64,000 bases of DNA from Methanoregula formicica SMSP (lineage in GTDB: Archaea; Halobacteriota; Methanomicrobia; Methanomicrobiales; Methanospirillaceae), in the NCBI RefSeq assembly GCF_000327485.1, contig NC_019943.1, forward strand, positions 62,001-126,000, given 5' to 3'. Position numbers and translations under genes: made by a program. The notes under the pieces were generated by a model. The model was not told the DNA's origin and did not search any database. It worked only from the letters and a program-made list of their open reading frames with translations. This document shows positions 17,890-45,456 of the stretch, piece after piece. Within the stretch, counting starts at the first letter, position 1; each line of letters opens with the position of its first letter.

Positions 17890-17896
17890 TTTTTTT
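17890..17896 (+). terminator. Oligo-T terminator after the OFA transporter
   Basis: Seven consecutive T lie 15 bases after the transporter stop and before the convergent kinase-like gene, matching the U-rich ends of archaeal transcripts. Confidence 0.5.
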
Positions 17897-17917
17897 ATCC
17901 GGAATTGCTTTCTCCGG

Positions 17918-27536: not shown

Positions 27537-28207
27537 GAAATCCTACGCTCCGTTCTGAATGAATACTCCGCATTTTTGAACTGAATTTCAGCATTGTCAG
27601 AATTCGCTGAGATAACAATGCCGTTAAGGAATTCTATGGCCTTGACATTTTTTCCAAATACGGTGAACACTAAAGGGAACAGTGTTATGTCGTGAGCAAC
27701 GACAACAAGCAGGTCTCCGGGCTGAACAGTAGGGTACGTCAGCAATTTACCCACTACCTCGTCTGTATACTTCCGGGGATTCCAGATAGTATCCTCCGGC
27801 AGCTCGGATCGCAGCCATTGTTGAATTAGTCCCTGCCATCCGAATTCATTTCTCAGTTTAACGAGATTATCCAGGTTGACAACAGGACTTTTTATCTCAG
27901 GCTCACACCCGAGAACCCTTGTCTGATTTAAAGAAGAGAACCCTTCCTGTATTGAGCAGGCGGTCATCTCACATCGTTTTGCGACAGTGTGCCCGAGGAG
28001 CAACAGTTTTTTGGGAGCAACCTGCCTGATGGATTTACCGAATTCCCGTGCCATCTGGACACCCTCAGGATTAATTCCAACGGTATCGCGCAGATGATCG
28101 GGAATACCACCGAATGAGTCCCTTTTTGAATGACGTATGAGGACAATCGTTTTTTTATTAAGGGGGGCCTCATCGAGAAGAGCAAGAACATAGGCGCCAG
28201 CTTTCAT
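27533..28207 (-). CDS. Histidine phosphatase superfamily protein
   Basis: The 224-residue protein has LIRHSKRD near residue 24, the RHG/RHS-type motif whose His is phosphorylated in this superfamily, and VVVAHDITLFPL containing the second conserved His. The ATG at 28207 is preferred: GGAGGT lies five bases upstream and the ATG overlaps the stop of the giant glycosyltransferase gene by four bases. The coupling suggests it removes a phosphate from a sugar, nucleotide or glycan end linked to the giant protein's product. Confidence 0.85.
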   Translation of the reverse strand: MKAGAYVLALLDEAPLNKKTIVLIRHSKRDSFGGIPDHLRDTVGINPEGVQMAREFGKSIRQVAPKKLLLLGHTVAKRCEMTACSIQEGFSSLNQTRVLGCEPEIKSPVVNLDNLVKLRNEFGWQGLIQQWLRSELPEDTIWNPRKYTDEVVGKLLTYPTVQPGDLLVVVAHDITLFPLVFTVFGKNVKAIEFLNGIVISANSDNAEIQFKNAEYSFRTERRIS

Positions 28208-31200
28208 ACCCAACCTCCATTCGTTACACCGTCGGTTTTCTTAAGCGGGGTTTTTCTTATAATCTGACCGATAATATCCTCGCGCATCAAACGGGTACCG
28301 GTATTTTTTTCTCCGGTGGGTTCATAGAAATACAACTTTTTGTCGATAAAGACCGGGTGGTGTGCCATCTCGACCATGGGAATCATGAAGGCCCAGTCTT
28401 CTGCATAGGGAATCCAGGTATCCCCGATTTTCATGTATGACTCAGGAATCGAATCAAACAGGAATTTCCTGAACGATCTCAGGTGCTGCCAGACGTTCCC
28501 GCCGCGGGCTCCCCGGGGATTCGTGAACATTGCTTTGTAGTCACACCATTTGTCGGTTCGAATCATGGATCCGACGGTGAGATCAGCTCCATCACTGTAC
28601 GCCTTCCTGAGTTGACCGATAATATCGGTCCCTATCAGCGCGTCATCCGCATCCAAAGTAATGATGACACTTTCCGGGTTCGAACAGATATCCCGGATTG
28701 CGATGAGGTTGTTTTCCATCGATGTGAGAGAATTCCCGTTGAAGAATACCCGGGCCCCCTCTCCGAGTGCAGGGGCCAGGATTTCACTGATGTATTCAGG
28801 GATGGGATTGGACGATCCAGCATCGATGAAGACAATCCCGAAGCAATGGTCCTGTTGCCGGGCAACCGAATCCATGCAGCGTCGCATCCTGGAGACCGGG
28901 ACATCCTTTCCACGGATGATGAAAATATACTCGGTATCGAGCGGGGCAATCCAGTCAGCAAGCCTGCCCATGAGATCAACAGAATTGTTCTGGATTTCCG
29001 GAACGTGATTTCGCTCGATGCTCCTGACGACATTATACCAGAGATTAATATCGGATTTTTTATCGTTGGGAACATGGACGAAGAAGGTCCGGCAGTCTCC
29101 TCCGCGATAGGATTGCCATGACGATTGTGCCAGTCTGGCATCAAGTGCCCTATGCCAGGGATACTGCAGGGCCCCGTCATGTGTCAATCCGTTCGGGAGG
29201 GGGAGCACAGCCGCCAGCCGGGCTTTCGCGAGAAGCGAGCACCGTACTTCCGTCCTCCACTTTTTCCTGGCCCGACCCGTAGAATACGGTTCATTCTTGT
29301 TTTTTGCTATGTTGAATGATATCGTGACGGCCATGGGATCTGACTGGAGAACATCGATCATCTCCCCAAGATAATCATGATCACGATCCTTGCGTCCGAT
29401 GAGACAATCGCTGTCCATCTGGAGAATGTAATCGCCTTGGCACTGGTCTACCCCGAACAATGACATGAAGGTTGGCTGTCCGTTTTCACATCGCGGGTTT
29501 GTGCAGGCAATACCGAACCACTTTTGATAAGTCTCTTCAATGGTCGCAGGATCGTCCGGGACTATCACAAAACGGTCGATGACACCTTCGGCTGTAAGGC
29601 GCTCCAGCCTTACTTTGAGTTCTGCCACATCTGCCGGGGCATACTCCCGGGAGAATGGCCCGGTGAAAGTGTCCGTAATAACGATTTTCTCGAAAAACCT
29701 CTGGGGCCCCTCCAGTTGATTGACGATATGGCGGATCTGGAAATCTATGGATTCCCACTCCATTGCACCCGCACGGATGAGGAGCGATACCTTTTCGTCT
29801 CTTGGGAGTTGAAGCGGTTTCACCTTAAGGAGGAGGAAATCGCTTGACGGGCAGAGATTCGGGATATCTGTCGTCCTGACCTCCTCGATTGTTTCAATCT
29901 CAAATCCCTGACGGCGTATCTGATGTTTATACCATGAGAATGGCCGGTGGCACTCCGTCCGAATTTTACCGGTCTCCCTCATTTTTTTCTGATAGACAAA
30001 GGTTTCCTGGTAATGAGAGTCATCCGGGATGTTCAGCTTCACATGCGTTTCAGATTCCGTTACAAATGATGAGAATGGGTTACAGAGTGCGATAATGGCC
30101 TCGCCGTCATCGGAAACCAGCGACCGGATATCCTGCAGAACCTCCGCAGCCTCGGAATCGTTGCTTATGGTACAGAGAACCAGGCTGCAGATCACCCGGT
30201 CAAATTTTGTTCCCTTATCCTTCAGAACCGCAAGCTCTTGTGAATCGATGTAGTGTGCCTTGACAGTCTCTTTCCGGTTTCTGGCAAGAACCGTCCGGTC
30301 CAGATCATACCCGGTGACCGGAAATCCCTTTCCCGCCAGGGCTTCTGCTATGGAACCCCGGCCGCATCCATAGTCGAAAATGCTGGAGGGATTTGCCTCC
30401 GATACGAGTCGAACAATGCATTCATTGACAAGATCATTCTTGGTTTTTGTCTTTGTCGATTCGTAAAAATACTCAAATCCGCACAGTTCCGGCAGATCCC
30501 CATCGAAGAGCGCGATCGACATCACATCAGAGATGTCTGCCCGGAAATGCCACCGGTACATGAGATATGCCCTCCGGCACATCTGGAGGAACTCGCTCTC
30601 ATTATACGGGACAATCGAATCACCGATATCCACAAGTTTGAGCATGCCGTCACTGACAACAAAATTCCGTGGGTGGAAATTCGTGAATGCAATACCGGCA
30701 TCGCGGCATTCTGTAAGAACGGAGAAGATGTCCTGCAGGTACCCTCCCGAATATTCCTCTCCCTTTTCATAGGAGAGGACAAAAATCAACTCCCCCTCAT
30801 CCTCGATGATTTCCCTGAGTTGGCATATATGGCACAAGGCAGGGTTGTTCAGGACCGTGGCCCTGATAACATCAAGCCGTCCGTCCTGAAAATTTGCCCG
30901 GCCCGCGTAGAAATATTTGTAGGCATTCGTACCATCGGTGAAAACGGCTCCTTCATGGCCATGCCCGACATAGGAAAGAGGTGCCGTGATTTCACCAATC
31001 TTCTTCTGAACAATTCTTTCAGTGATAATCCTTGCCCAATCAACCTGCGCTGGCAACACATCCTTTGTAAGGGCTGATCGGTAGGTTTTCACATGCCCTT
31101 TGAACTGCATGAGGAATCGTCGAAGGTCCTGCTCATCGCGGGCCATACCCTCACGATACAGGTTCCAAATATTCTTATTCGAATACATTTCTTTAAGAGA

Positions 31201-33402
31201 TTTCAGGAATGTGAGGGTATTCTCTGCTCCCTGCCCGTGGGAAAATGAATCAGACTGTAACACCTTTTCTATCGAGCCGATGAGTCCCTGAATCCGGTAG
31301 GCGTTCATGACGAATTGGGTGAGCCGCCCGGCCAGATGGTAATTGAACGAGGTGCAAACTTGGGCGATATCCCCCTCTTCCATCGAGAGTCTGATCCTGC
31401 GGGGGATTGAGCCGGTCTCCCCGATTTTTTTCTCATAGTACTCGTCCATAGCACGGACATATGCACTTCCATAAAAATCAGCAAGCAGGGAATCAAAGTT
31501 CATGACACCCGCCGCTTCAGCGGTCCGTTCCTGCCTGACCGCAAGAGGGAAAATCCCCACCTTGCTTGCCCGAACCCGGTTATTGAGAATGCACCAGAAA
31601 GTATCCCCGCGACGGGCATTCAGCCTCCCGATCCTGGGAGAGATGTTGGGAAATTCCCGCAGGCATACCGGATTGAGCACAAGGGTATTACCACCTCGCG
31701 GGATTATTGATCGGGAACCTGATAGCGATCCGCCACAGGTCGAGTGATGCGGAACGGCGACGGGCCGGGTCAGGTTCCTGCCATAACCGATGGCGGGGAT
31801 CTCCCGGATAATATCCCTGCCTTTGAACGGAAGGACCGGCAGTTCGAGGTGGGCCGCATGCTCACTGGAATAATCATAGTAATAATCGGGAAATGCTCTG
31901 CCGAGCTCAGCGATTGAATCCCGTGTTTGAGAGACGGGATGGGCCGACACTGTGGCGTCCGATGCGATCAAACGCTCCTGCTCTTTCAGTGCGAAGAAGA
32001 CATCGAGCAACTGAACCCGCATTGTGCTTTGAACCGGGAGCGGTGCATCCCCGGTGATTTTCCCTACGGCAATGCTGATGCCCTCACTCCGTAACCGGCC
32101 GATGGTATTTTGCAGATCCGCAAGAGAGAGTTTCACAATTTCATTATCCGTTGTCAGATACTCAAGACGGATATCGTCATCGAGGATCCAGACCACAGAA
32201 CCCGGTATCTGCCGTGCCTCCTTGTAGAGGTAATGGTGGAGAACGGTTCTTCCCGAGGAGATCCCTTTTCGCTGCTGTTCATCCTGCAGATAGGATCCGA
32301 ATGTTCCCCGGTCGCACTCTTCATCAATGGTTCTGCTGCCGATACATACACAGTTCAGTGACCGGTAGTTTTCCGAATCGAGGAGTCGGTGGAGATCTGG
32401 TGTTGAGGGCGTGTTATCGCAGACGATCACCCGCCGTTGAACGGAAGAGTTTTTGAAAAACTCCACAAGATCGTCAAGCAGGTATTGCGTGGAACTCATT
32501 CGTGTTGCAATGAACCCGATGACAACAGGGATTTGCGATACGGCAGGCACATCAGGTGATTTATGAGTGCAATCCGGCAGACAATCTCCAAACCGCCATT
32601 GGGTTTCCTCGATGTCACATCCAAAAAGGTCCCGCGCACGATGCCGGAATGCCTCACGCTCCGGTTCGGTCATTCTCGGGGCGTATTTATTGTAGAATCC
32701 CGCGAGTCCCTGTTTTTTCCGGGGGGATCCGGGCTCAGATAACCGGTTTGTATCGGGAATCGCCCAGTGATGTACCAGATGTTTTCTTACAAATCCGATG
32801 CGGCAGGTATCGAGATCGAGCAGCCGGATGCAGACATCCCGGTCTGTTGTGCTTTCCAGTGCTTCATCAAATCCCCCGGCATGAAGAAGGGTCGAGAACC
32901 TCACGAAGAGATTGGAGCCCTGAACATGGGGATTCCGGATGAGAAAATCGTGCGCCGAAAGTGTATCAGGGATCGTAAGAGGGATTCCGCTATCTCCGGT
33001 TCTTTCGTGGCGTATGAGACCGGATACAACAACATCACAGCGTTGTGAATCGGCTGTTTTCAAGCATTCCGCGAGATACTCGGGGGACCACTCATCGTCA
33101 TCGTCGAGAATCGAAATCCAGGTCGATTCCGGAACAAGACCTGCCTGTATGCAGGAATACAGGCCGGTGTTTATTGCCCCGGAGAGATTGTCCGTCCTCT
33201 GGTTTTTAAAAAATTGAATACCGGGAAGGATTCTGGATGCATCGTGAACCGCATCCCGTGTCTGTTTCTCGTGATTGCTATCACAATCGCTAACAACAAG
33301 GATGGTATCCGGTTGCTTTGTCTGCTGGGCGATCGAACCGAGAGCCCGTCTCAGCAATTCAGGCCGGTTCTTCGTTGGAATAAGTACGGCAAGGTGCGGC
33401 AT
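28204..33402 (-). CDS. Giant multidomain glycosyltransferase-kinase-methyltransferase
   Basis: The 1732-residue protein has no signal or membrane helix. I see six units. (1) A GT2 domain, residues 1-250, with VLIPTKNRPELLRRAL and ILDDDDEW near 99. (2) A second GT-like domain, about 290-690, with WILDDDIRLE near 407. (3) A kinase-like domain, about 800-960: GHGHEGAVF glycine loop near 814, a YKYF lysine, NFHPRNFVV catalytic loop near 909 and DIGDS (the DFG position) near 925. (4) A methyltransferase with FDYGCGRGSIAEAL near 1011. (5) A GT domain with LQMDSDC near 1329. (6) A GT2 domain with ITLDADDA near 1582. It probably builds, phosphorylates and methylates a glycan. It sits between a short UDP-sugar dehydrogenase-like gene and a phosphatase gene. 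Confidence 0.9.
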   Translation of the reverse strand: MPHLAVLIPTKNRPELLRRALGSIAQQTKQPDTILVVSDCDSNHEKQTRDAVHDASRILPGIQFFKNQRTDNLSGAINTGLYSCIQAGLVPESTWISILDDDDEWSPEYLAECLKTADSQRCDVVVSGLIRHERTGDSGIPLTIPDTLSAHDFLIRNPHVQGSNLFVRFSTLLHAGGFDEALESTTDRDVCIRLLDLDTCRIGFVRKHLVHHWAIPDTNRLSEPGSPRKKQGLAGFYNKYAPRMTEPEREAFRHRARDLFGCDIEETQWRFGDCLPDCTHKSPDVPAVSQIPVVIGFIATRMSSTQYLLDDLVEFFKNSSVQRRVIVCDNTPSTPDLHRLLDSENYRSLNCVCIGSRTIDEECDRGTFGSYLQDEQQRKGISSGRTVLHHYLYKEARQIPGSVVWILDDDIRLEYLTTDNEIVKLSLADLQNTIGRLRSEGISIAVGKITGDAPLPVQSTMRVQLLDVFFALKEQERLIASDATVSAHPVSQTRDSIAELGRAFPDYYYDYSSEHAAHLELPVLPFKGRDIIREIPAIGYGRNLTRPVAVPHHSTCGGSLSGSRSIIPRGGNTLVLNPVCLREFPNISPRIGRLNARRGDTFWCILNNRVRASKVGIFPLAVRQERTAEAAGVMNFDSLLADFYGSAYVRAMDEYYEKKIGETGSIPRRIRLSMEEGDIAQVCTSFNYHLAGRLTQFVMNAYRIQGLIGSIEKVLQSDSFSHGQGAENTLTFLKSLKEMYSNKNIWNLYREGMARDEQDLRRFLMQFKGHVKTYRSALTKDVLPAQVDWARIITERIVQKKIGEITAPLSYVGHGHEGAVFTDGTNAYKYFYAGRANFQDGRLDVIRATVLNNPALCHICQLREIIEDEGELIFVLSYEKGEEYSGGYLQDIFSVLTECRDAGIAFTNFHPRNFVVSDGMLKLVDIGDSIVPYNESEFLQMCRRAYLMYRWHFRADISDVMSIALFDGDLPELCGFEYFYESTKTKTKNDLVNECIVRLVSEANPSSIFDYGCGRGSIAEALAGKGFPVTGYDLDRTVLARNRKETVKAHYIDSQELAVLKDKGTKFDRVICSLVLCTISNDSEAAEVLQDIRSLVSDDGEAIIALCNPFSSFVTESETHVKLNIPDDSHYQETFVYQKKMRETGKIRTECHRPFSWYKHQIRRQGFEIETIEEVRTTDIPNLCPSSDFLLLKVKPLQLPRDEKVSLLIRAGAMEWESIDFQIRHIVNQLEGPQRFFEKIVITDTFTGPFSREYAPADVAELKVRLERLTAEGVIDRFVIVPDDPATIEETYQKWFGIACTNPRCENGQPTFMSLFGVDQCQGDYILQMDSDCLIGRKDRDHDYLGEMIDVLQSDPMAVTISFNIAKNKNEPYSTGRARKKWRTEVRCSLLAKARLAAVLPLPNGLTHDGALQYPWHRALDARLAQSSWQSYRGGDCRTFFVHVPNDKKSDINLWYNVVRSIERNHVPEIQNNSVDLMGRLADWIAPLDTEYIFIIRGKDVPVSRMRRCMDSVARQQDHCFGIVFIDAGSSNPIPEYISEILAPALGEGARVFFNGNSLTSMENNLIAIRDICSNPESVIITLDADDALIGTDIIGQLRKAYSDGADLTVGSMIRTDKWCDYKAMFTNPRGARGGNVWQHLRSFRKFLFDSIPESYMKIGDTWIPYAEDWAFMIPMVEMAHHPVFIDKKLYFYEPTGEKNTGTRLMREDIIGQIIRKTPLKKTDGVTNGGWV

Positions 33403-34522: not shown

Positions 34523-34993
34523 TTACCCAACCCGCTTGATCCGCGCCATCGCCTCTTTCAGCTTCTCCATCGAAGCCGCGTACGACAGCCGGATCCATCC
34601 CGGCGCATAGAACGCACTGCCCGGTGTAGCAGCCACGTGCCCCTTGTCGAGCCAGCGTGAGGCAACTTCCATATCGTCCCCTGCAACCCGGACAAAAGCA
34701 TAGAACGCACCCTCGGCCGGGGCGGTCTCGTAGCCCATCGCGTTCAGTTCGCCCATGACGTACTTCCGCCGCTTGTCAAACTCCTGCCGCATGTTCTCGA
34801 CGCAAGACTGGTCGCCTTTCAGTGCCGCAACCCCGCCCCACATGGCAAAGGTCGTGACCTGGCTGATCGAGTGCTGCTGGACCTTGGACATCTCCGTGAT
34901 GATCTCTTTCGGACCCACGGCGTACCCGAGCCGCCAGCCGGTCATCGCGTAGGCCTTCGAGAAGCCGTTGACATATTCCCAAACAGGGAACAT
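34523..34993 (-). pseudogene. 3'-end fragment of an aspC-type aminotransferase gene (copy 1)
   Basis: From about 34972 down to the stop at 34523 the frame matches the last 149 codons of the intact aminotransferase gene at 44323-45456, starting just before the PLP-lysine motif [15 protein letters not shown] count six amino-acid differences. The frame shows no frameshift or internal stop, and homology stops near the stop codon. The first eight residues after the ATG are unrelated, so the 5' two thirds of the gene are missing. It cannot form an active enzyme. Same orientation as the intact gene. Confidence 0.88.
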
Positions 34994-35089
34994 GGATGCA
35001 TGAAACCGGCATGAATACCCGCAGCCTGATCATCCATCATCTTTTTTTCGATTCATACACAGAGCAGGGGGATTGAAGCAACCTCCTGT

Positions 35090-35608
35090 TCATGAATTTT
35101 TTTTCTTACGTTTCTTCAACGTTAATGCAATGCCAATGAATGCAAGTGCAATGACTGCGCCCGCAAAATTTAAAGACAGGACATTGCGGGTTTGAGCCGG
35201 TTGCACAAGAACCCGTGAAATCCCCCCGCCAGGATATACTGTCTCAATTGAGCTTGACCACGTCTCGTTGGCGCCGATGATCCAGATGTCAGTGATTCTT
35301 GTGGGGTCATTGCGTTCCCCGGTCATTCTCATCGAGAATACTAGCTGTTTCCCGCAGTTGTTGGCCGGGGGGATGTGAACTGATTTATAATCTATATCCA
35401 TCTGCTCCTCGTACCAATATCCGACACCACACTCATTGAAAAATTCCATAATGGTGGCGTTGCCCTTCACGGTCGGATGCCTGCCGGTAAGCTGATCGAG
35501 GGGTATGCCCATACCGGGATATACCGGTGTGATTTCTGCTGCAGATACTATCCCCAGTAGTGTCGTGATACCAAGCAGGAAACTGAAAACAAGTGCAATC
35601 GTTCTCAT
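35090..35608 (-). CDS. Exported single-anchor protein of unknown function
   Basis: The 172-residue protein has a signal peptide (residues 1-23, ending VSA), an extracytoplasmic part with two cysteines (NECGVGYWYEE and NNCGKQL) that could pair, and a C-terminal transmembrane helix followed by KKRKKK. The ATG at 35608 fits the signal; the longer frame lies in the upstream gene. It begins ten bases after the transglutaminase-like gene and so is its operon partner. I do not recognise the domain. Confidence 0.75.
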   Translation of the reverse strand: MRTIALVFSFLLGITTLLGIVSAAEITPVYPGMGIPLDQLTGRHPTVKGNATIMEFFNECGVGYWYEEQMDIDYKSVHIPPANNCGKQLVFSMRMTGERNDPTRITDIWIIGANETWSSSIETVYPGGGISRVLVQPAQTRNVLSLNFAGAVIALAFIGIALTLKKRKKKNS

Positions 35609-35618
35609 AAAAAAAGGG

Positions 35619-36902
35619 TTAATTGTATGCCGGCAGTTCTCCAAACGGCTCGGCAATCATATCTTCATATCTCAGCAAGCCGTCACCTGAGGGATCTGTA
35701 GTATACCGGCTGTCATCAGCATCGGTATACTTTGTCAGGCTCATATGTGTGTTGTTGGCCATTTCATATACCTGTGGGTTGTTGAACGATTTCCATGTTG
35801 GATCGGAATGCACCCAGGCACCCGCCATCCGGTTTTCCAGGATTGCATGCCCCTGGGCAACACCGTTCTCGTCAATCCAGGTGATGCCGAGGAACCGTGA
35901 AGGTATCCCAAGCGAGCGGCTGAAAGTTACATCCATTGTGGAAAATTCATCGCATACTCCCCGGTAGTTATCGTTTACAATATAGAGATCTGATGCAGCA
36001 TAGAGTAAATACGTAGTAGTTGTCGAATAATTCATTTTAGTTCCAACGTAGTCGTTTAGTCTGCTGGCCGTATCATACGGTGAATTGGTATTATCGGCTG
36101 CGGTTGCCGCTTCAGATATGATTGCATACCCTTCACTGAATGGGAAATGGTACAGGTCGCTTGTCTCAAGGTTGTCCCCGCCATCCGGGTCCGGCAGGTG
36201 CGAGGCATCATTGTTGTATTTTTCAATCCCGTTTAAGGACAATTGCCCGGACCATGTCACGGTGCCAGGATTTACGGTGATGAAAAAACCCATCGGTTTT
36301 ATTCCTACGGAGCTCTGACTTGCAACGACAGGGAACGGGATTGAAACCGAACAGTTGGCACCCGGGGCGAGGTTTGTAAATGCTGCTGATGCACCATAAC
36401 CGTCTTCAATGGAAACGAATGTTACCTGACCGCTTGCGGCGGTTGTCCCGTAATTATGGATGACAATCGTCTGGGTGACTGTGGTATCTTGGGTCCAGTA
36501 CCAGTCGAAATATCCGTATTCAGGGGCCACGAGGGGGATTGCGGCTGCTGCTTTCACGGTACCGGTCTTTCCTGCAGGACTGATGAAGTTGAGCCTTGCA
36601 GCCTTCATTGAGGATTTTTGTGAATCCACGATGTCATTGCCGGGAGGGAACCGGGTATCAGGACTGATGATCGTAACGCCCGGGTATGCCTTTGCGGTCT
36701 TTTCATCCATCTTCCTGACTGCAACCGGTGTCACGATCGGGTTATATGCCGACATATCCTTTTGTCCGGCCCATTCATCGAATTCACCGACCCATCCCGG
36801 GGGTGTCGGGTTCGTATCGTTCATTGCGCTTACAAGCGGAACCAATACCACTCCCAGCATCAGTGCCGCGAGCAGCAAATTCCATTCTCTTTTTTGTTTC
36901 AT
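35619..36902 (-). CDS. Secreted transglutaminase-like cysteine protease/transferase
   Basis: The 427-residue protein has a signal peptide (residues 1-26, ending VSA), a beta-rich domain in the middle, and a transglutaminase core near residues 310-375. The core triad is visible as RGVCDEFSTM (Cys), QGHAILEN (His) and HSDPTW (Asp). Prokaryotic members are usually proteases or peptide-bond modifiers. GGAGGT lies upstream of the ATG at 36902, which is chosen over 36932. Its leader is homologous to that of the clan-CD-like protein at 40006-40680, so the two are probably expressed together at the cell surface. Confidence 0.85.
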   Translation of the reverse strand: MKQKREWNLLLAALMLGVVLVPLVSAMNDTNPTPPGWVGEFDEWAGQKDMSAYNPIVTPVAVRKMDEKTAKAYPGVTIISPDTRFPPGNDIVDSQKSSMKAARLNFISPAGKTGTVKAAAAIPLVAPEYGYFDWYWTQDTTVTQTIVIHNYGTTAASGQVTFVSIEDGYGASAAFTNLAPGANCSVSIPFPVVASQSSVGIKPMGFFITVNPGTVTWSGQLSLNGIEKYNNDASHLPDPDGGDNLETSDLYHFPFSEGYAIISEAATAADNTNSPYDTASRLNDYVGTKMNYSTTTTYLLYAASDLYIVNDNYRGVCDEFSTMDVTFSRSLGIPSRFLGITWIDENGVAQGHAILENRMAGAWVHSDPTWKSFNNPQVYEMANNTHMSLTKYTDADDSRYTTDPSGDGLLRYEDMIAEPFGELPAYN

Positions 36903-37027
36903 GCGATTTCTACCTCCATTTTTCGGAAGCATGATCCAAAATCTTCATTAGGACAGACGATAATTGGTTCATGCCTACGGGCAGGGTCGGGTTCGTCAAG
37001 TGTGCAAACTTATGTGAACCCGTCCTT
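36903..37027 (-). promoter_or_regulatory. Conserved promoter/leader, copy 1
   Basis: The upstream region matches the region at 40681-40813. The strongest block (36969-37026, minus strand) includes ACATAAGT, TGCACACTTGACGAACCC and CCTGCCCGTAGGCATGA, the last able to fold as TGCC-CGTA-GGCA. Shorter shared blocks (TTTGGATC.TGC and AAAAATGGAGGTA) run to the ribosome site. It probably holds the promoter and an mRNA leader. Confidence 0.6.
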
Positions 37028-37139
37028 TCCACTTTTCAGATCCACATTTACACTATAAATGCCATTTGATTCAAAATTTAAAATATAATTCGTTGCTCCT
37101 CCGGTATCAACAACGCGGAATAATCGCCTCGGTATAGTA

Positions 37140-38063
37140 TCAGATTTCCCGGTCACTGATCACCACACGGAGGCCCGTGTCAGGATATGTGACAATGATT
37201 TGGAGATGGATGGGTACGGTTTCATTTCCTGACACATCTCTCCCCTGAAGTGTTACGGATGCTTTTTTCTGGAACTGGAGTCCATCTGAAGGTGTAATTT
37301 TCACGTTAAAACCAGATCCCTGAATTATCGACTGGTTACTGACATCCTTTTCATCCAAATATATTTTCACGGTGGGGGCCGAATCATGTTTTATCCTTGC
37401 ATCCGGAATCATAACAATACGAATGGAATCAGGGCTGGTACGGGTTACATCCACACTATCGGAAATAATTGGGGCGCAACACGAGAGCTCTTTTGCAATG
37501 ACTCCCGTACTCATACCAAAGTATAACAGACTTGGCGGGATGATCAGGACTGCGAGGAATAATAACCGGTAATTGCAGAGCCTTTTCACAACGGTTGATG
37601 GGCTTCGGTTTTTTTTCTCATTTGGTGGGGCCAGGTACTTGGGTTGATGAAACCATGCACCTGCCAACTGCAGGGCAACCGATCCGAAGAGGATCCCCGC
37701 GAACAGGACGAAAGGCAGATCGGAAAGATCCCCTGCGTCCAACATGATCGTCTGGAACGCGATGATCGCCATGAACACAAGTGCTGTACCAATCCCGGAT
37801 ACCAATCCGATAATGCTCTCCCGTGTATTCTTTCCGGTACTGAACAGGTCCCCCGCAATATACCCAAGGATGGCAAAAAGCAGTGTAAAGAGTACGATTG
37901 CCTGGGCATCATGATACGGAAAAAACTCTATCGCATTCGGAAAAAACCGGTCCCATATTTCTTGCAGAAGATAGTACGCTGCGGCTGAACAGACACCGCC
38001 GAGGCTGCCCCACAGGAGGATTGCCGGTAATGACAGATCTTTTAACGAGGGTTTCATTTTCAT
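37140..38063 (-). CDS. Membrane protein with extracytoplasmic Ig-like domain (paralogue A)
   Basis: The 307-residue protein has four hydrophobic helices in its first 150 residues, a fifth near 165-185, and a C-terminal beta-rich domain. The C-terminal part aligns with that of the next upstream protein: both have DVSNQ, GGL/DGL and a closing VISxxx pattern with GKGV/GRDV in between. A CC pair follows the last helix. No enzyme motif is seen. It is the last gene of the clan-CD/PepSY unit and may be a sensor or anchor for the secreted proteins. Confidence 0.7.
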   Translation of the reverse strand: MKMKPSLKDLSLPAILLWGSLGGVCSAAAYYLLQEIWDRFFPNAIEFFPYHDAQAIVLFTLLFAILGYIAGDLFSTGKNTRESIIGLVSGIGTALVFMAIIAFQTIMLDAGDLSDLPFVLFAGILFGSVALQLAGAWFHQPKYLAPPNEKKNRSPSTVVKRLCNYRLLFLAVLIIPPSLLYFGMSTGVIAKELSCCAPIISDSVDVTRTSPDSIRIVMIPDARIKHDSAPTVKIYLDEKDVSNQSIIQGSGFNVKITPSDGLQFQKKASVTLQGRDVSGNETVPIHLQIIVTYPDTGLRVVISDREI

Positions 38064-38208
38064 CAGTGGTTAATATACTGCTCCGTCACCGCCGATGCGC
38101 TTCTGTTTATTGGTTTTACCGATATGGCATTGCGGATCCAACTTTAATATTGCCGGTGTTTGTACTGACATAGTTTATGTCATCCGGATCCATCGTAACC
38201 TGAGTTTA

Positions 38209-39147
38209 TTATATACTATCGTCATAAAGGATAACCGGTTGTTCCGATCCATTGTAACTGATTACCTTCAGACGTATCGGAGTACTATTACAATTGGCAA
38301 CACCCTTCCCTGAGATAATTACAACGGAATCCTCATCATAGGTCAATCCTCCAGCGGGGTTAACAGTTACAGGAAAACCGTTTTTCTCAGATACGGTCTG
38401 GTTGCTGACATCTATATCATGAATAAGGATCCGCGGAGGATTGTATCGACCGATCCATGATACTGCAGGCATTTTTGCTGAGTACAGTATCCTGATTGTC
38501 AGATTGTCAAGACGTTCAACTCTGATTTCCTGATGGAGCCGGCATTCTAGGCAGTCATTGGCAATAAGGCCGGAAGTTGTTCCGATTAAAGCCAGCATCG
38601 GAGGGATCGAAGCTGATAACAGGATAAGGATGAACAAGGCGGTTAACGTAAACGCACATTGCGCCCCTCTCTTTTTAGCAACTCTGCTTGCTTCCCCAAA
38701 TGATAATCTATGATAATATCCCACGGCGCCGGTCATCGTTCCGAGAGACGCAAGAATAATCGACAGTATTATCAGACATAAGACGGGGAAATACACGGAA
38801 CCCTCAGGAAGATTTCTGGTTAATGCTATGCAGAATGCGATGCCGGTACCTGTTATACATCCCGACAGGAGACCGATAACCAGGGCATCTTTTTGATTAT
38901 TGATGGATAACCGGCATTGAGAGACTGCCCATGCACCAGTAAAAAACAGAATGAGCAAACCGGTCAAGAGCATCTGCGTTATCTGGATAATTATCAGATA
39001 AAAATTGTAATCAACAAATGGTCTCCAAATCCACTGGTTCAAGAAAAAAAATAAAACCAGTGCAAAGACTCCGGTCAACCCTGTAATAGATAAAAATATA
39101 AGGATCTTCCTTCTTGGATTTTTTTTTCCAATTTCTAGGGATGACAT
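38209..39147 (-). CDS. Membrane protein with extracytoplasmic Ig-like domain (paralogue B)
   Basis: The 312-residue protein repeats the plan of its neighbour at 37140-38063: four N-terminal helices, a basic loop (RVAKKRGAQ), one more helix, then CLEC and a beta-rich C-terminal domain with DIDVSNQTV and SGKGV. The two proteins are diverged paralogues from a tandem duplication. It starts 11 bases after the PepSY gene, so it belongs to the same unit. I recognise no further domain. Confidence 0.7.
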   Translation of the reverse strand: MSSLEIGKKNPRRKILIFLSITGLTGVFALVLFFFLNQWIWRPFVDYNFYLIIIQITQMLLTGLLILFFTGAWAVSQCRLSINNQKDALVIGLLSGCITGTGIAFCIALTRNLPEGSVYFPVLCLIILSIILASLGTMTGAVGYYHRLSFGEASRVAKKRGAQCAFTLTALFILILLSASIPPMLALIGTTSGLIANDCLECRLHQEIRVERLDNLTIRILYSAKMPAVSWIGRYNPPRILIHDIDVSNQTVSEKNGFPVTVNPAGGLTYDEDSVVIISGKGVANCNSTPIRLKVISYNGSEQPVILYDDSI

Positions 39148-39158
39148 GCTATCAAAAA

Positions 39159-39992
39159 TTAATTGAATGGATTAAAGAGAATTATTTTTCCGTTCTGGGC
39201 ATCAACAACAACCTGCCCTCCCTGGACAAGGCCATCAACAGGTGCTGCATTAACTTTTACGATCCATACTAGTTGCTGAACATCCGGTTCAGGACTAGCA
39301 AGTGAAAGATAGGCATCAGTCCTAGAATCTTTGAGATTCCCAAACTGTTCAAGAGCGGCCCTGACAGCATCAGATTGTCTGACATTGGGCTCAAGGTTGA
39401 TCTTGGTTTCCCGCTCTTTAGCCAGATATGAGATAATCTTACCATTATCCGAATCTACAGTGATGTATATCTTGTTCAATGTGGAAACCCCATTGATTTT
39501 TTCTGACCACACAAACGCATATTCCTGTCCTCCGGCACCATGATCAATAAGCGTAGATTCCGTCAACTCCATATTTCGTGTAATGAATGTTTTGTATTTT
39601 TCTTTCGCAAAGATTTCGGCATTGTTTTTTGCCTGCTGCTTATCAATATGGACACGATGTGAACTGGAGCGAGCATCCGAGAAATATGCGAATTCTATAT
39701 CCCCGTTTTCCTTATTTACGTAATACCGGTTCTTTCCTTCCGAAAAGTCATATACTTCTCCGTATGGAAATTTGATAGACCCATGGTATTTGAAATCCAA
39801 GGAATTCAGATTCTTTGAATTGCCGTCGAAGTCCACAATTCTGTTTTTCGCCTCATCAATTCCGATGCCGGTTGAAGATGGCGATAAATCCTGTCCTCCT
39901 TCTTTTGTTAATGCTGCCGCGGGAAAGGAAGCGATCACCAGCGATGCAATAATCACCGATATTATTGAAATTTTCGTAAACTGTTTCATCAT
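39159..39992 (-). CDS. Secreted PepSY-domain-like protein
   Basis: The 277-residue protein has a signal peptide (residues 1-27, ending AAA) and two or three PepSY/protease-propeptide-like repeats, seen as KIYITVDSDNGKIISYL near residue 190 and VVVDAQNGKIILFNPFN at the C-terminus. Such domains inhibit or chaperone secreted proteases. GGAGGG precedes the ATG. It lies 13 bases after the clan-CD-like gene. A propeptide-like inhibitor of that putative protease is the simplest reading. Confidence 0.78.
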   Translation of the reverse strand: MMKQFTKISIISVIIASLVIASFPAAALTKEGGQDLSPSSTGIGIDEAKNRIVDFDGNSKNLNSLDFKYHGSIKFPYGEVYDFSEGKNRYYVNKENGDIEFAYFSDARSSSHRVHIDKQQAKNNAEIFAKEKYKTFITRNMELTESTLIDHGAGGQEYAFVWSEKINGVSTLNKIYITVDSDNGKIISYLAKERETKINLEPNVRQSDAVRAALEQFGNLKDSRTDAYLSLASPEPDVQQLVWIVKVNAAPVDGLVQGGQVVVDAQNGKIILFNPFN

Positions 39993-40005
39993 TTTCCCTC
40001 CTTGA

Positions 40006-40680
40006 TTATGATCCTGCTCTTGCCGGTTTTATCGTGTTTGACACTCCCGGTCCCTGCCAGGTTACTGTGTCTATCCCTCCACTACCTAGGTACCAGTATG
40101 TATTCAGGGTATCCACTTTTGCATAATATGCCGCATCCTGTATGGTGGAATATTGGTTAAGACGATACCAGAAACGCTGGGTCCAGTAATCGGCTTGAAA
40201 CTTTGTAATTTCTCCGGTAAACCCTACGGCAGCATCTCCGCCGCGGTTTACAGTCGTTGAGAGAAGGTTGGAACCACCGGACCCGGAATTACAATTAACA
40301 AATACTGCAAGTGCAAGATCATTGATCTGACCGCTGGTTAATTTTGATATGCTTTTTTGGTCAGATGGATTGTTGGCATAAATCCAGGAATTGTCATAAA
40401 AAACAATTCCTCCGCTGTTACCATGACCGTTAAAGGAAAATACCTGATCACTTGGCAGGTTACTCCATGCAGAAGATGCAGGAACATTGGAATCATAATA
40501 AGCACCGTAACCCATGTTGCTTTGCTGAACTGCGGCATTATATGCATCATTACTGAAGTCATTTGCATAACCATAGTTCGGACCCCAGTCATCAGCCCTA
40601 TACGCACTCGCTATCGGTACCACCGCCATCGCTGCGAGCAATAATGCAGACAGGATAACGCATAATCTGTTTTTTCTCAT
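40006..40680 (-). CDS. Secreted caspase/gingipain-like (clan CD) candidate protease
   Basis: The 224-residue protein has a signal peptide (residues 1-26, ending ASA). It contains a hydrophobic strand ending VFSFNGHGNSGG and a later strand ending ALAVFVNCNSGSGG. This is the His-Gly and Cys dyad arrangement of clan CD peptidases (caspase, gingipain, CHAT). It is followed by GGDAAVGFTGEI, also typical after the catalytic Cys in such folds. Assignment is from motif pattern only. The ATG at 40680 is placed after GGAGGT. First gene of a unit with PepSY and two membrane proteins. Confidence 0.7.
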   Translation of the reverse strand: MRKNRLCVILSALLLAAMAVVPIASAYRADDWGPNYGYANDFSNDAYNAAVQQSNMGYGAYYDSNVPASSAWSNLPSDQVFSFNGHGNSGGIVFYDNSWIYANNPSDQKSISKLTSGQINDLALAVFVNCNSGSGGSNLLSTTVNRGGDAAVGFTGEITKFQADYWTQRFWYRLNQYSTIQDAAYYAKVDTLNTYWYLGSGGIDTVTWQGPGVSNTIKPARAGS

Positions 40681-40813
40681 GTAATTCAATACCTCCATTT
40701 TTCTCTACTAACAGAGGCACGATCCAAACATTCTATGAAGAGAAGTCTTTCATCTCATGCCTACGGGCAGGATTGGGTTCGTCAAGTGTGCATACTTATG
40801 TAAACCCCGTCCT
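40681..40813 (-). promoter_or_regulatory. Conserved promoter/leader, copy 2
   Basis: This leader is homologous to the one before the transglutaminase-like gene: the block at 40755-40813 differs from 36969-37026 at only a few positions, and the GGAGGT region is also shared. The spacing from block to start codon is similar (75 versus 67 bases). Common transcriptional or leader-mediated control is likely. Confidence 0.6.
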
Positions 40814-41121
40814 CCACTGATTGGGACGCCCTCCGGCTGTCCGCAATGAGCAGTTTGCCCCGGGATTATAAACGATTTGTCGGTCAAAACTTTACATGTC
40901 CCTGGAATACCAATCACACGAACTATTTCGTAAAAGGTATTTTTATTCACCAATAAACGAGATACGTTCGAACCTGAAAAAACCCGTTTTTTAAAAACGA
41001 GAGGAACCAACAACCCGGAGAGAGAATAAGGTTGTGATACCATGTTCTCTCCGGATCGACGGGTATCGTTTTAGATAACCGCATCACAAATACCCAATCC
41101 TTCTATAAACGTTCTCTCATC

Positions 41122-41156
41122 CAAAACTTTACACTTCAGCAACGTGTAAAGTTTTG
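41122..41156. promoter_or_regulatory. Operator-like inverted repeat upstream of the secreted small protein gene
   Basis: CAAAACTTTACAC (41122-41134) and GTGTAAAGTTTTG (41144-41156) form a perfect 13-base inverted repeat with a nine-base spacer. A third half site, CAAAACTTTACATG, is at 40885-40898. The repeat ends 48 bases before the ATG at 41205 and overlaps the expected promoter. The rest of 40814-41204 holds no gene. Confidence 0.6.
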
Positions 41157-41204
41157 ACCGACAAAAGGTATTAATCTGTAATTGGAACGCTTTCCCGTGA
41201 TACC

Positions 41205-41654
41205 ATGAAGGTTCACTGGTTAGCACTGTTGTTAGTTATCGGTGCGGCACTGACCGTACCGGTTGTATCGGCAAAGATTGTTGAAGAAAAAGACGGGTAT
41301 GTCGTGACACCTGGCGACAATACCCTCAGGCTGCCGGAAATATCCCGAATGAGTTCGGCCTCGATTTCCCAGGGACAGACTCAATGGTATTCAACATATG
41401 TACCGTCGGGAAAAACCTCGTTCTTTGCCGATCTGTACTGGGGCACCCCTTCAAATTCCCTCTCGCTCACGATCGCTGCCCCAGATACCACACTCGGTCC
41501 CTACTATGATTCCGCGGACGGGCGGATCGATGGCCGGGTTAACCTGAGGATTTCCAAATCCGGCGGTCTTGCATCCGGCACCTGGTGGTCGAAGGTTTAT
41601 GGATACCGGGTGAGTGGCGTGCAAAGCTACACTTATTCTGCATCCGCGAGTTAG
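41205..41654 (+). CDS. Small secreted beta-sandwich (PPC-like) protein
   Basis: The 149-residue protein has a signal peptide (residues 1-23, ending VSA). The mature part has the features of a pre-peptidase C-terminal or related jelly-roll domain: SQGQTQWYSTYVPSGKTSFF near the start and many Ser, Thr, Tyr and Trp. No catalytic motif is seen. It is likely a secreted surface protein controlled by the inverted repeat just upstream. A membrane winged-helix regulator gene follows after 39 bases. Confidence 0.72.
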   Translation: MKVHWLALLLVIGAALTVPVVSAKIVEEKDGYVVTPGDNTLRLPEISRMSSASISQGQTQWYSTYVPSGKTSFFADLYWGTPSNSLSLTIAAPDTTLGPYYDSADGRIDGRVNLRISKSGGLASGTWWSKVYGYRVSGVQSYTYSASAS

Positions 41655-41693
41655 ACCATAACCCTTTTTTTATCGTACCCTGAATATTCATGG

Positions 41694-42500
41694 ATGAAGA
41701 AAATGATCAGGTACGGAATCATCCTGATTCTTGTTCTTTGTTCATTTTCGTTAGTACCATCCGGTTCCTGCGGGTTTCATAATGGATACACGGTCGAACC
41801 GGTAACACCAGATATGGATACGGGTACGCCGCTGGAAACCGTGCCGGTCGATTTCTGGGACCTTCCCCCGGGAATGATGTTGCTCGCACTGGCTCTTTCT
41901 GTATCCTCCTTTATCGGATTCCCCGTTGAACTCTTCTTATTCATCAAACTATACGCATATCTGGGATACCGGCATGTTACCAGAACAATCGTATTTGAAA
42001 ATGACACACGGAGTCTTGCCTATCATTGTATACAAGATAATCCGGGTATCTACTTCAATTCCTTAGTGCGAAAGACCGACATCAAACCCGGGACACTGCG
42101 GTACCATCTCATCATTCTCATGACAACAGGAAAGATCTCCGCTATGAATATGAACGGCCATACACGGTATTTCGAAAATTCCAGGAAATTTTCAGAGGTA
42201 GAGAAAACGGTGTTTAAGCATATCCGGAATGAGACTGATAACCGTATTCTCATATTACTGCTTGATAATCCCGATACGAACAGGAAGAATCTGGAAGTGA
42301 TGATGGGAATATCAGGACCATTGGTTACATGGTACATGAGAAGACTTAGTGATGATGGAATTGTCTCCATACAAAAAAACAGGAAAAATGTCCGGTATGA
42401 GATCTATCCTGAAGTGCGGCAATATCTTGAAAAATATCTTGTCCCAAACAGGGGGGTGATGCCGGTGTTATCCCTGGAACCTTCTCCCGAATCTTCATAA
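41694..42500 (+). CDS. Membrane-anchored tandem winged-helix regulator
   Basis: The 268-residue protein has a signal/anchor segment (residues 5-25), a short outer loop, a second transmembrane helix (about 62-90), then two winged-helix domains in the cytoplasm. The first (NPGIYFNSLVRKTDIKPGTLRYHL) and second (NPDTNRKNLEVMMGISGPLVTWYM) have clear recognition-helix patterns. Proteins of this plan are common in methanogens and may regulate surface genes. It may bind the 13-base inverted repeat upstream of the gene before it; this is inferred from position. Confidence 0.82.
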   Translation: MKKMIRYGIILILVLCSFSLVPSGSCGFHNGYTVEPVTPDMDTGTPLETVPVDFWDLPPGMMLLALALSVSSFIGFPVELFLFIKLYAYLGYRHVTRTIVFENDTRSLAYHCIQDNPGIYFNSLVRKTDIKPGTLRYHLIILMTTGKISAMNMNGHTRYFENSRKFSEVEKTVFKHIRNETDNRILILLLDNPDTNRKNLEVMMGISGPLVTWYMRRLSDDGIVSIQKNRKNVRYEIYPEVRQYLEKYLVPNRGVMPVLSLEPSPESS

Positions 42501-42616
42501 TGCAGAATTCCAAGAGTTTATTTCAAGCCTGAAAAAACCGGCCCTTTATCCTGAATGGAGAAAAAAAGGTGGGCGATGGTATACGACCTTCGGTTTTCAC
42601 CCACACATCCCCGTAA

Positions 42617-42722
42617 TCAACCCGACATCTGCTGAGCTGTCACCGGGTCCAGCACCTGTGCTAGGATCTGCCCGGCCATCGACATGAAGAAGGTCCAGAA
42701 GACTTTCTTCACCTGCTCTTCT
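42617..42722 (-). pseudogene. Possible remnant of an unknown coding region
   Basis: A short open stretch with no start codon encodes about 35 residues ending AQVLDPVTAQQMSG before a TGA at 42617-42619. It begins in the end of the aminotransferase fragment, in a different frame. Composition looks protein-like, but I recognise no family. It may be the tail of a gene cut when the neighbouring fragment was formed. Confidence 0.25.
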
Positions 42723-42918
42723 ACCCCACCCTCTTGATCCTCGCCATCGCCTCGCGGAGCTTCTCCATCGAAGCCGCGTACGACAGCCGGATCCATCCCG
42801 GCGCATAGAACGCACTGCCCGGTGTAGCAGCCACGTGCCCCTTGTCAAGCCAGCGTGATGCCACTTCCATTTCAGCTCCGGCAACCTTCACGAACGAATA
42901 GAGCGCACCCTCAGCCAT
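42721..42918 (-). pseudogene. 3'-end fragment of an aspC-type aminotransferase gene (copy 2)
   Basis: The last 63 codons match the end of the intact gene at 44323-45456 with about six amino-acid differences, and the match runs through the stop and some nine bases past it. Homology starts at the codons for EGA(L/F)Y. A start codon (ATG GCT GAG) happens to precede, so an intact 65-codon frame remains. It lacks the PLP lysine and cannot be an aminotransferase. It lies 119 bases from the start of the fic gene, with the intact aminotransferase gene on the other side of fic. Confidence 0.88.
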
Positions 42919-43037
42919 CTTGGAAATACATACTCTTGGTAAAATCGTGGCGAGGTGATCCCATCCTCATTCACCAGCAATTTGATGATTCAGAAGACGT
43001 CAGTATATTATAATGAACCTGCTGAAGGGAGCGGAAT

Positions 43038-44123
43038 ATGGCCTTTAATCGTCTCCGTCCCAATAACGAGCTCCCGCCACTTCCTCCGGCAATAGATCTC
43101 GAAACAAAACCAATCCTGAAAAAATGTATATCGGCACACCGGGCTCTGGCCACTCTGAAAGGTGCCGGCGATCTTATTCCCAACCAGGCCATCCTCATCA
43201 ACGCTATCCCGCTTCAGGAAGCAAAAGCAAGTTCGGAGATCGAGAATATTGTCACAACAGGAGACGATCTGTACCGGGCATCCATTATCCCAAGTGCAGC
43301 AACCGATCCCCAGACAAAGGAAGTCCTGCGTTACCGGAGTGCATTACGTCGAGGATACGATCTTTTGGGTAAATACCACATCTCCAACGTTGTTCTTAAA
43401 GAGATCTGCGAGGTTCTGCTGGATCGCGAGGTCCAGATCCGCTGGTTCGGGGATACCAAGATCAAGAACCGGGCGACCGATGAGACGATATATACTGCAC
43501 CTGAAGGCGGGGATATCCTCCGTGATAAACTGGACCGTCTGGAGCAATACATCCGCGAAGGAAACTCAATTGATCCGTTAATCCGCCTCGCCCTCATTCA
43601 CTACCAGTTCGAGGCGATCCATCCGTTCGAAGACGGGAACGGGCGTACCGGGCGTATTCTGAATATCCTGTTTCTTATCGAGCGGGGACTCCTCGATATC
43701 CCCGTGTTATACCTAAGCCGCGGGATCATAGCCCGGAAAAACGATTACTACCGGTTGCTCCGTCAGGTAACGGAAGAAGGTGCCTGGGAAGAATGGATAC
43801 TCTTCATGCTCTCGGTCATTGAGGAAACATCTGTCTGGACATATGAGCGAATTCTTGCGATACGACATCTTCTTGATGAGACAACAGAGAAGTGCAAGCG
43901 TGAACTGCCATCAACGGTTTATTCAAAGGACCTGGTAGAGCTTGTTTTCGTCCAGCCATACTGCAAGACCCAGTTTGTTGTCGATGCCGGTATCGCCAAG
44001 CGCCAGACTGCGGCGAGTTACCTTCAGGAAATGGAAAAGATCGGCGTACTCGAATCCAGAAAAATTGGCCGGGAGCGGATTTACATTCATCCCGCTCTCC
44101 TCCATCTCCTGAGAGAGCCATAG
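43038..44123 (+). CDS. Fic-family protein (class II, N-terminal inhibitory helix) with winged-helix tail
   Basis: The 361-residue protein has the complete Fic motif HPFEDGNGRTGR (His195), which transfers AMP or another nucleotide part to target hydroxyls. The inhibitory motif SSEIEN at residues 65-70 places its own inhibitory helix before the Fic core (class II), so it should be self-restrained. The C-terminal 80 residues (TQFVVDAGIAKRQTAASYLQEMEKIGVLE) look like a winged helix. It is convergent with the aminotransferase gene and followed by strong hairpins. Target unknown. Confidence 0.92.
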   Translation: MAFNRLRPNNELPPLPPAIDLETKPILKKCISAHRALATLKGAGDLIPNQAILINAIPLQEAKASSEIENIVTTGDDLYRASIIPSAATDPQTKEVLRYRSALRRGYDLLGKYHISNVVLKEICEVLLDREVQIRWFGDTKIKNRATDETIYTAPEGGDILRDKLDRLEQYIREGNSIDPLIRLALIHYQFEAIHPFEDGNGRTGRILNILFLIERGLLDIPVLYLSRGIIARKNDYYRLLRQVTEEGAWEEWILFMLSVIEETSVWTYERILAIRHLLDETTEKCKRELPSTVYSKDLVELVFVQPYCKTQFVVDAGIAKRQTAASYLQEMEKIGVLESRKIGRERIYIHPALLHLLREP

Positions 44124-44322: not shown

Positions 44323-45456
44323 CTACCCAACCCGCTTGATCCTCGCCATCGCCTCTTTCAGCTTCTCCATCGAAGCCGCGTACGACAGCCGGATCCAACC
44401 CGATGCATAGAACGCACTGCCCGGTGTAGCAGCCACGTGCCCCTTGTCAAGCCAGCGTGATGCCACTTCCATATCGTTACCGGCAACCTTCACGAACGCA
44501 TAGAACGCACCCTCGGCCGGGGCCGTCTCGTAGCCCATTGCCTTGAGCTCGCCCATGACGTATTTCCGCCGCTTGTCGAACTCCTGCCGCATGTTCTCGA
44601 CGCACTGCTGGTCACCCTTGAGCGCCGCAACTCCGCCCCACATGGCAAAGGTCGTGACCTGGCTGATGGAGTGCTGCTGGACCTTCGACATCTCCGTGAT
44701 GATCTGCTTTGGTCCAACCGCGTACCCGAGCCGCCAGCCGGTCATCGCGTAGGCCTTGGAGAAACCATTGATGGTGATGGTGCGCTCGTGCATGTCGCCG
44801 ATTGCCGCAAGCGAGAGGTGCTCTTTCCCGTAGATCATCTTCTCGTAGATCTCGTCCGACATCGCGTAGAGATCCTTGTCCGTGCAGAGATCGGCTACGA
44901 GCTGCATGGACTTCTTGTTGAAAACAGCGCCTGTGGGATTCGAGGGCGAGTTGACGATGATCATTTTTGTTTTGTTGTTGACCTTTTCAAGAAGAGAGTC
45001 ATCGAGCTGGAAGGTCTTCTGGTTGATCTCGTGGAAGACCGTTTTCCCGCCAGCGATATGGATGCAGGGCTCGTAGGAGACCCAGGCCGGTGTGAGGATG
45101 ATCGCCTCGTCGCCCGGGTTCAGGACGGCCTCGCAGGCCTCGTAGATCGCGTCTTTCGCCCCGCAGGCGACAATCACCTGCTGGGGCGTGCAGGGGAAAT
45201 GGTTCTCCCGCTCGATCTTCTCCGCGATTGCGGCGGTCAGCTCAGGGATGCCGCTGCTCGGCGCATAATGCGTCTCGCCCCGCTTCAGCGCATCGATGCA
45301 GGCGTCCGTGATGTGTTGCGGGGTGGCGAAATCAGGCTCTCCGATAGACAGGCTGATGACATCGATCCCCTGCCGCTGCATCGCCTTGGCCTTGTTGGAG
45401 ATGGCGATGGTTGCCGATTCTGTTACGCCGGCAATCTTTGCCGACAGCGGCTTCAT
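44323..45456 (-). CDS. Pyridoxal phosphate aminotransferase (aspartate aminotransferase type)
   Basis: The 377-residue class I aminotransferase shows [12 protein letters not shown] near the N-terminus, [18 protein letters not shown] and the PLP-lysine motif [17 protein letters not shown], and a C-terminal arginine in GWIRLSYA. It is the usual archaeal aspartate or broad-specificity aminotransferase. The ATG at 45456 overlaps the ribH stop by four bases. It ends an operon with ribH, ribC and a class V aminotransferase. Two truncated copies of its 3' end lie downstream at 42721-42918 and 34523-34993. Confidence 0.92.

Follow-up and report, generated by a model that had tools for sequence, protein, structure and literature searches.

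Few archaeal regulatory RNAs are understood. The closest described case to the locus considered here is sRNA162 of Methanosarcina mazei, whose nucleotides (nt) 1–65 bind the 5′ untranslated region (UTR) of MM2442; a different segment contacts the mRNA of MM2440 and MM2441, the latter of which encodes an ArsR-type regulator (PMC3510493). That paper reported sRNA162 homologues from Methanosarcina alone and dealt with two leaders, that of MM2442 and that of its duplicate. For Methanosarcina, conservation and possible RNA structure have also been reported for an S-layer 5′ UTR (PMC3361143). With regard to proteins, the nearest couple is SleB and YpeB, which are encoded in one operon and depend on each other, YpeB stabilising SleB besides holding it inactive (PMC6660665); mutual dependence is also described elsewhere, together with the view that YpeB may keep SleB inactive until YpeB is degraded (PMC13393411). 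Here we describe a locus of Methanoregula formicica SMSP at positions 35090–40680 of a 64,000-nt window (the whole stretch of DNA analysed; contig NC_019943.1, positions 62,001 to 126,000), in which genes for a protease-like protein with a PepSY partner and for a transglutaminase-like protein follow two copies of one RNA leader. This leader, known so far at one gene, appears from sequence comparison to be a widespread family before secreted proteins of methanogens, and it is the most informative part of the locus.

The RNA leader: structure, spread and predicted switching

A preliminary description of the window had, in a brief mention, placed both enzyme genes under the same leader. We found a 53-nt repeat (92% identical) before each of them, at 36969–37021 and 40755–40807, inside a structured element of approximately 108 nt. 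The copy before the protease-like operon spans 40709–40815 and that before the transglutaminase-like operon 36921–37029 (fold z −4.03 for 36925–37030), both on the minus strand. A first model, built from five copies, detected 14 copies in the M. formicica genome and the leader in 30 of 232 genomes of its order. Model R2 (108 positions) was built from 49 non-redundant copies, all from the same order, which were left after removal of those >90% identical from a set of 59; this set had been chosen from 70 matches, after exclusion of antisense hits, of repeated hits to a single copy and of a small number that were weak or identical. R2 detected 21 copies in the M. formicica genome. Across the phylum, 392 genomes were sampled and 77 carried the leader at E ≤ 0.001, including 45 from outside the training order. 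Both window leaders belong to the training set; with R2 they score 77 bits (E 1.2e-16; protease leader) and 99.2 bits (transglutaminase leader).

Three helices make up the leader: P1 (GGGUUCA/UGAACCC), P2 (AGGCAUGA/UCAUGCCU) and P3 (CUUC/GAAG). Among the 49 training copies, 85.1% of cells were paired and 12 of 23 pairs had changed on both sides (at most 11 in slid controls). In a fitted alignment of 32 copies from outside the training order, the corresponding values were 87.3% and 15 of 23 (at most 8 in slid controls). An unfitted alignment of 25 outside-order copies scored −37.0 in RNAalifold versus −4.4 (standard deviation 2.1) for shuffled columns, a value reached by 0 of 200 shuffles. The 3′ end of the leader is mostly located about 20–35 nt before a start codon led by a Shine-Dalgarno (SD) sequence. 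Secreted-like products were encoded by 48 of 53 leader genes; for 400 other genes from these loci the figure was 83. Both counts come from a home-made rule rather than SignalP; this stricter rule was used because a looser signal-peptide count (54 of 64 leaders, five of the 64 being without a gene) suffered from a high background, with 250 of 516 frames passing. A Pfam scan of ten leader-gene proteins left six without a family at E ≤ 0.01. Leader copies cluster in tandem gene groups, in the M. formicica genome near 1.51, 1.89 and 2.31 Mb. In neither the window nor 10 leader loci did any Rfam family score at the gathering level, and weak Rfam matches to unrelated families in the protease-leader region were set aside as chance. 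The leader family is absent from Rfam 15, and no published description was found in a search that left subscription journals mostly uncovered. These sequence comparisons show the leader to be a structured RNA that recurs in Methanomicrobiales and other methanogen families, mostly before secreted-like proteins.

At the locus L037 (5867–10665), the leader precedes a 45-residue Cys-rich precursor resembling those of ribosomally synthesized and post-translationally modified peptides (RiPPs), two radical S-adenosylmethionine (SAM) genes and an ABC transporter; similar leader-radical SAM sets occur at L167 and L137. In the M. formicica genome itself, leader-led secreted proteins at L162 (2459–3649) and L166 (2774–4900) include C39-like cysteine peptidases, one of which has a weak Spi-inhibitor (I69) stretch.

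The 3′ arm of P2 reads GCCUCC, GCCUCUU, GCCUCG or GCCUCA and complements the local SD sequence (GGAGG, AAGAGG, CGAGG or UGAGG). P2 and this anti-SD pairing share bases and therefore exclude each other. Among 55 leaders chosen for a swap test, 53 of which had a usable SD, the mean native pairing was −8.40 versus −7.00 (standard deviation 0.19) for swapped partners (0 of 1000), a difference that is inflated by genome relatedness, as are the pair-change counts given above. The two states differed by a median of 1.7 kcal/mol (23 of 25 leaders were usable); P2 was the lower-energy state in 16 of these 23 and the shut form in 6. The shut form was predicted for the protease leader and the open form for the transglutaminase leader. 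We infer that the leader switches translation between two states: formation of P2 (AGGCAUGA with UCAUGCCU) would leave the ribosome-binding site open and pairing of the P2 3′ arm (GCCUCC) with GGAGG instead would shut it.

Of 13 outside-order loci, 7 carried Rfam sRNA162 (RF02792) above its gathering score on the strand opposite the leader, and the 5′ end of sRNA162 fell at leader position 56–57, opposite the P2 5′ arm. Because they bear sRNA162, these genomes were taken to be Methanosarcina and its kin. An antisense RNA of this type, bound by its 5′ end to the P2 5′ arm, would leave the P2 3′ arm available to the SD and give the shut state.

The CHAT-like protein and its PepSY partner

The first gene behind the protease leader (40006–40698, minus strand; likely SD-led start at 40680 or 40689) encodes a predicted secreted CHAT-like (clan CD) cysteine-peptidase-like protein with His92 and Cys136, numbered from the ATG at 40698. 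A profile of its family matched a solved CHAT protein (PDB 8tl0, Pfam PF12770) at E 7.8e-5 with the His and Cys aligned, and also matched CHAT domains in other archaeal genomes, again His on His and Cys on Cys. Both residues were invariant across the 14 active-type rows of the alignment, and each follows a hydrophobic strand, as in the CHAT/clan CD dyad. The product is clan-CD-like by sequence, and its peptidase activity is a prediction. Within the order, 28 of 150 genomes had relatives; a profile search whose matches include TPR-CHAT and other distant proteins found them in 34 of 392 genomes of the phylum. One match (L074) was in an Archaeoglobales-named genome, where a PepSY gene was present too. 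Three paralogues that follow a PepSY gene (L040, L047 and L055) have Phe in place of the catalytic Cys and therefore look like dead enzymes; they are possible pseudo-enzyme regulators. A virus origin was considered and rejected, as no viral contig with an encoded relative was found.

Directly downstream (39159–39992, minus strand) lies the gene for a predicted secreted PepSY/YpeB-like protein. It matched Pfam PepSY (24.7 bits, cut-off 24; E 3e-5) and DUF4901 (29.4 bits, cut-off 27; E 1e-6), and its AlphaFold2 model was of good confidence (predicted local distance difference test, pLDDT, 80.3). The best structural match of this model was the C-terminal domain of YpeB (5boi; Z 16.8 over 209 residues, root mean square deviation 5.1), followed by M4 propeptides (Z 9–10; Foldseek E 6e-5 to 2e-4), and the C-terminal part of the protein had a weak profile match to an M4 propeptide (E 0.055).

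A PepSY gene was located directly downstream (≤150 nt) of 28 of 41 protease-like profile matches, usually at a spacing of 2–25 nt or with a slight overlap, and two fusions carry both domains in one protein (L057 and L058). TPR-CHAT matches stay within the 41, L124 was scored as lacking PepSY despite a PepSY-like frame directly downstream (E 2.4e-5), and L062–L074 were omitted from the count as duplicates; five of these (L063, L066, L067, L068 and L072) were not otherwise included, and all five have PepSY downstream. Among the 31 protease-like matches at E<1e-14, PepSY was directly downstream of 26, one of them also fused, and the rest comprised one match with a fusion only, the three Cys-less paralogues following PepSY, and L050. 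Viewed from the other side, 25 of 31 strong PepSY matches had a protease-like gene upstream. The PepSY gene accompanies the protease-like gene in 13 of 13 named loci. The PepSY protein is a conserved partner of the protease-like protein, as the preliminary description had supposed. The best reading of the pair, by analogy, is a protease with its cognate inhibitor or holder, given the gene order, the fusions and the likeness to YpeB-SleB. In the literature searched, no description of a CHAT-like/PepSY enzyme-holder couple of this composition was found.

Transglutaminase-like pair, regulator pair and island borders

The second leader precedes a gene for a predicted secreted transglutaminase-like protein (35619–36932, minus strand; start probably at 36902, after an SD). 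Its assignment stood, with Transglut_core over the cut-off (46.7 bits versus 23; E 4.2e-12); the Cys, His and Asp located in GVCDEF, GHAIL and HSDPTW are presumably the transglutaminase triad. The gene for a small protein with an N-terminal signal-like and a C-terminal hydrophobic segment (35090–35656, minus strand; SD-led start probably at 35608) follows the transglutaminase-like gene in 7 of 17 matches. A transglutaminase-like gene behind the leader was also observed at L251 (Transglut_core, 7.3e-13) and, by a home-made profile, at L252 and L248. On this gene order, the transglutaminase-like and small anchored proteins form a separate conserved pair, which has in common with the protease operon only the leader and, in some genomes, the neighbourhood.

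Between the two modules lie genes for two multi-spanning membrane proteins, paralogue 2 (38209–39147) and paralogue 1 (37140–38063), both on the minus strand, whose hydropathy shows some four or five hydrophobic stretches and a soluble C-terminal portion. The former is the operon's third gene in a subset of genomes; a membrane paralogue accompanied the PepSY gene in a minority of matches (8 of 38). In the Pfam scan, no family exceeded the cut-off for the protease-like protein, either membrane protein or the small protein. The coordinates given in the preliminary description were confirmed for all six frames, which lie side by side on the minus strand, and that description was also correct with regard to the A+T-richer island and the aminotransferase fragments at its borders. 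Two of its claims were not upheld: the membrane paralogues, called Ig-type, had no Pfam Ig match, and a single six-gene system was rejected, the two modules being separate in relatives. Rarity of co-occurrence, which the preliminary description had named as a refuting result, is contradicted for the protease-like and PepSY genes.

On the plus strand, upstream of the protease leader, lie genes for a 149-residue signal-bearing protein (41205–41654) and a winged-helix-turn-helix (HTH) regulator (41694–42500; HTH_HVO_0163_N 4.1e-15, HTH_24 8e-13), in the positions of MM2440 and MM2441, respectively. Homologues of both were found beside leaders in own-order and in sRNA162-bearing groups. The regulator may be membrane-bound, since N-terminal hydrophobic segments precede its two winged-HTH domains. 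A box, GTAAAGTTTTGACCGACAAA, lies a few bases ahead of a TATA-like sequence at the protease leader and again at the 41205 gene. Just upstream of the TATA-like TTTATAAT of that leader is an inverted-repeat box (40876–40904), the other arm being at 41137–41165 (repeat I1, 29 nt, 90%); before the 41205 gene, the region 41118–41165 combines a palindrome, CAAAACTTTACAC-N9-GTGTAAAGTTTTG, with a second box and is a probable operator. The GTAAAGTTTTGACCGACAAA box is a shared putative operator, through which the regulator may govern transcription of two operons, its own and that of the leader and protease.

The G+C content of the island (35001–43000) is 0.40–0.50 versus mostly 0.52–0.62 in the flanks. 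Two 3′ fragments of one aminotransferase gene border it, at 34526–34972 (149 codons, 95% identity) and 42724–42915 (64 codons, 91%); the intact gene is located at 44326–45456. This arrangement looks like repeated recombination at one gene. The first fragment is also present in a related genome (L036), where, at 11455–18732, the protease leader and the regulator pair are separated by an insertion of approximately 7 kb that includes a transposase-like frame and more signal-bearing genes, with a partial second copy of the 41205 gene. Two further observations concern the surroundings: a gene between the aminotransferase copies (43038–44123) encodes a Fic-like protein with HPFEDGNGRTGR in its translation, which we take to be the Fic motif, and a 1732-residue open frame at 28204–33402, seemingly a fused glycosyltransferase with other domains, adjoins a UDP-sugar dehydrogenase-like gene.

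Competing readings and comparison with known systems

As read from sequence, the candidate system is two operons under one RNA element. The first would produce a secreted cysteine peptidase of CHAT-like type, whose PepSY partner would hold it inactive or stabilise it as YpeB does SleB, together with a membrane protein; the second would produce a secreted transglutaminase-like enzyme and a membrane-anchored small partner. The enzymes probably act on the surface of the producing cell or of its competitors. The explanation that best joins these features, and one we hold to be somewhat probable, is that the locus is part of a large secreted-protein regulon, with an RNA-switched leader before a CHAT-like peptidase/PepSY holder operon and a transglutaminase-like operon. 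A broader reading is plausible at somewhat less than even odds. In it, an old two-state leader, present far beyond Methanosarcina, controls how a large part of the proteins secreted or displayed at the surface are translated in many methanogens, RiPP operons, C39-like peptidases, transglutaminase-like enzymes and protease-inhibitor pairs among them; sRNA162-type antisense RNAs would have arisen later inside the leader via a promoter gained in the P3 region, and a secreted CHAT-like peptidase whose PepSY holder is encoded separately would be a new kind of regulated clan CD protease.

Several observations weigh against these readings. Apart from the relatedness that inflates the pair-change and swap tests, several leaders of the M. 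formicica genome (GCCGGC type) have little SD complementarity. sRNA162 stayed below the 78-bit threshold in this genome (best match 17.9 bits, E 1.2, opposite the transglutaminase leader), with no match opposite the protease leader, and a TATA-like box for an antisense start in the P3 region was present in 0 of 19 of its leaders versus 12 of 27 in the other group. Because the genome lacks both sRNA162 over threshold and these boxes, the leader looks older than its antisense RNA. The many genomes with a leader and without recognisable sRNA162 would also suit a metabolite- or ion-sensing riboswitch, with a ligand pocket, built from P1 and the near-invariant GCCCGUAGGCA, deciding whether P2 or the shut form is adopted, the Methanosarcina antisense RNA being a later addition. 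The segment GCCCGNAGGCA, near-invariant and unpaired or alternately paired, and the competing states of the leader are consistent with such a sensor; however, the apical loop of P1 is variable and the genes downstream have secretion in common rather than one metabolic pathway, and we consider this unlikely. About equally unlikely is a leader that does not switch and acts only as a constitutive 5′ element, stabilising the transcripts of abundant secreted proteins or enhancing their translation, and copied along with its genes. Its spread by duplication is plain from the tandem gene groups, but P1–P3 show compensatory changes, the P2 arm co-varies with the SD across families, and antisense binding has been published for one leader (PMC3510493).

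The protein pair has its own difficulties. L050 is an active-looking protease-like paralogue without PepSY, and 6 of the 31 strong PepSY matches lack the protease-like gene. Against Pfam CHAT, the window protein had no match, and 2 of 21 family members matched (best E 0.01), neither over the curated cut-off; since members fall below this cut-off, the protein is labelled CHAT-like rather than a Pfam CHAT member. The caspase/gingipain-like character proposed in the preliminary description agrees with the clan-CD-like sequence; the AlphaFold2 model was too poor (pLDDT 39.4) to bear on a caspase fold. We consider it rather doubtful that the PepSY protein, instead of inhibiting the CHAT-like protein, serves it as secretion chaperone, substrate or surface receptor. 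PepSY/YpeB-type folds do occur in regulators such as YycI/YycH, according to the structure matches, and YpeB stabilises SleB beyond holding it inactive (PMC6660665); against this, the order enzyme-then-PepSY is constant, fusions exist and the fold matches M4 propeptides. A secreted weapon with self-protection, for attack on or defence against neighbouring cells, roles that the preliminary description had named, is the least probable of the alternatives: the same leader precedes RiPP-like operons in related genomes (L037, L167 and L137) and a C39-like secreted peptidase, but no delivery signal was seen and many leader genes look like plain surface proteins.

If the regulon reading is true, a multi-copy leader tied to a characterised antisense RNA would turn the isolated MM2442 case into a regulon-wide mechanism, testable in genetically workable Methanosarcina strains, and the CHAT-like/PepSY pair would be an archaeal, genetically linked enzyme-holder couple.

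Compared with CHAT-domain proteins (PF12770, 8tl0), the window protein has aligned His and Cys motifs and differs in being short, secreted and single-domain, without TPR or NTPase domains. Its PepSY partner resembles the propeptides of M4 metallopeptidases (FTP-PepSY, e.g. that of vibriolysin MCP-02, 3nqy) in fold, but is encoded by a separate gene and accompanies another enzyme class. In Bacillus spores, SleB is a lytic transglycosylase. The window locus is like SleB-YpeB in that a hydrolase gene and a PepSY protein share one operon and the partner has the YpeB C-terminal fold; the enzyme here is instead a CHAT-like cysteine peptidase and there are no spores, and the likeness covers the C-terminal fold alone, whereas the N-terminal region of YpeB is the most inhibitory in vitro. 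With the sRNA162/MM2440-MM2441-MM2442 locus of M. mazei, the window shares a leader homologous to the 5′ UTR opposite sRNA162 and neighbouring homologues of the 150–170-residue protein and the winged-HTH regulator. In contrast to that locus, the regulator pair is divergent and not in line, no sRNA162 is recognisable, and protease/PepSY and transglutaminase-like genes take the place of MM2442. The leaders treated in PMC3510493 are those of MM2442 and its duplicate, whereas the leader described here is a whole family.

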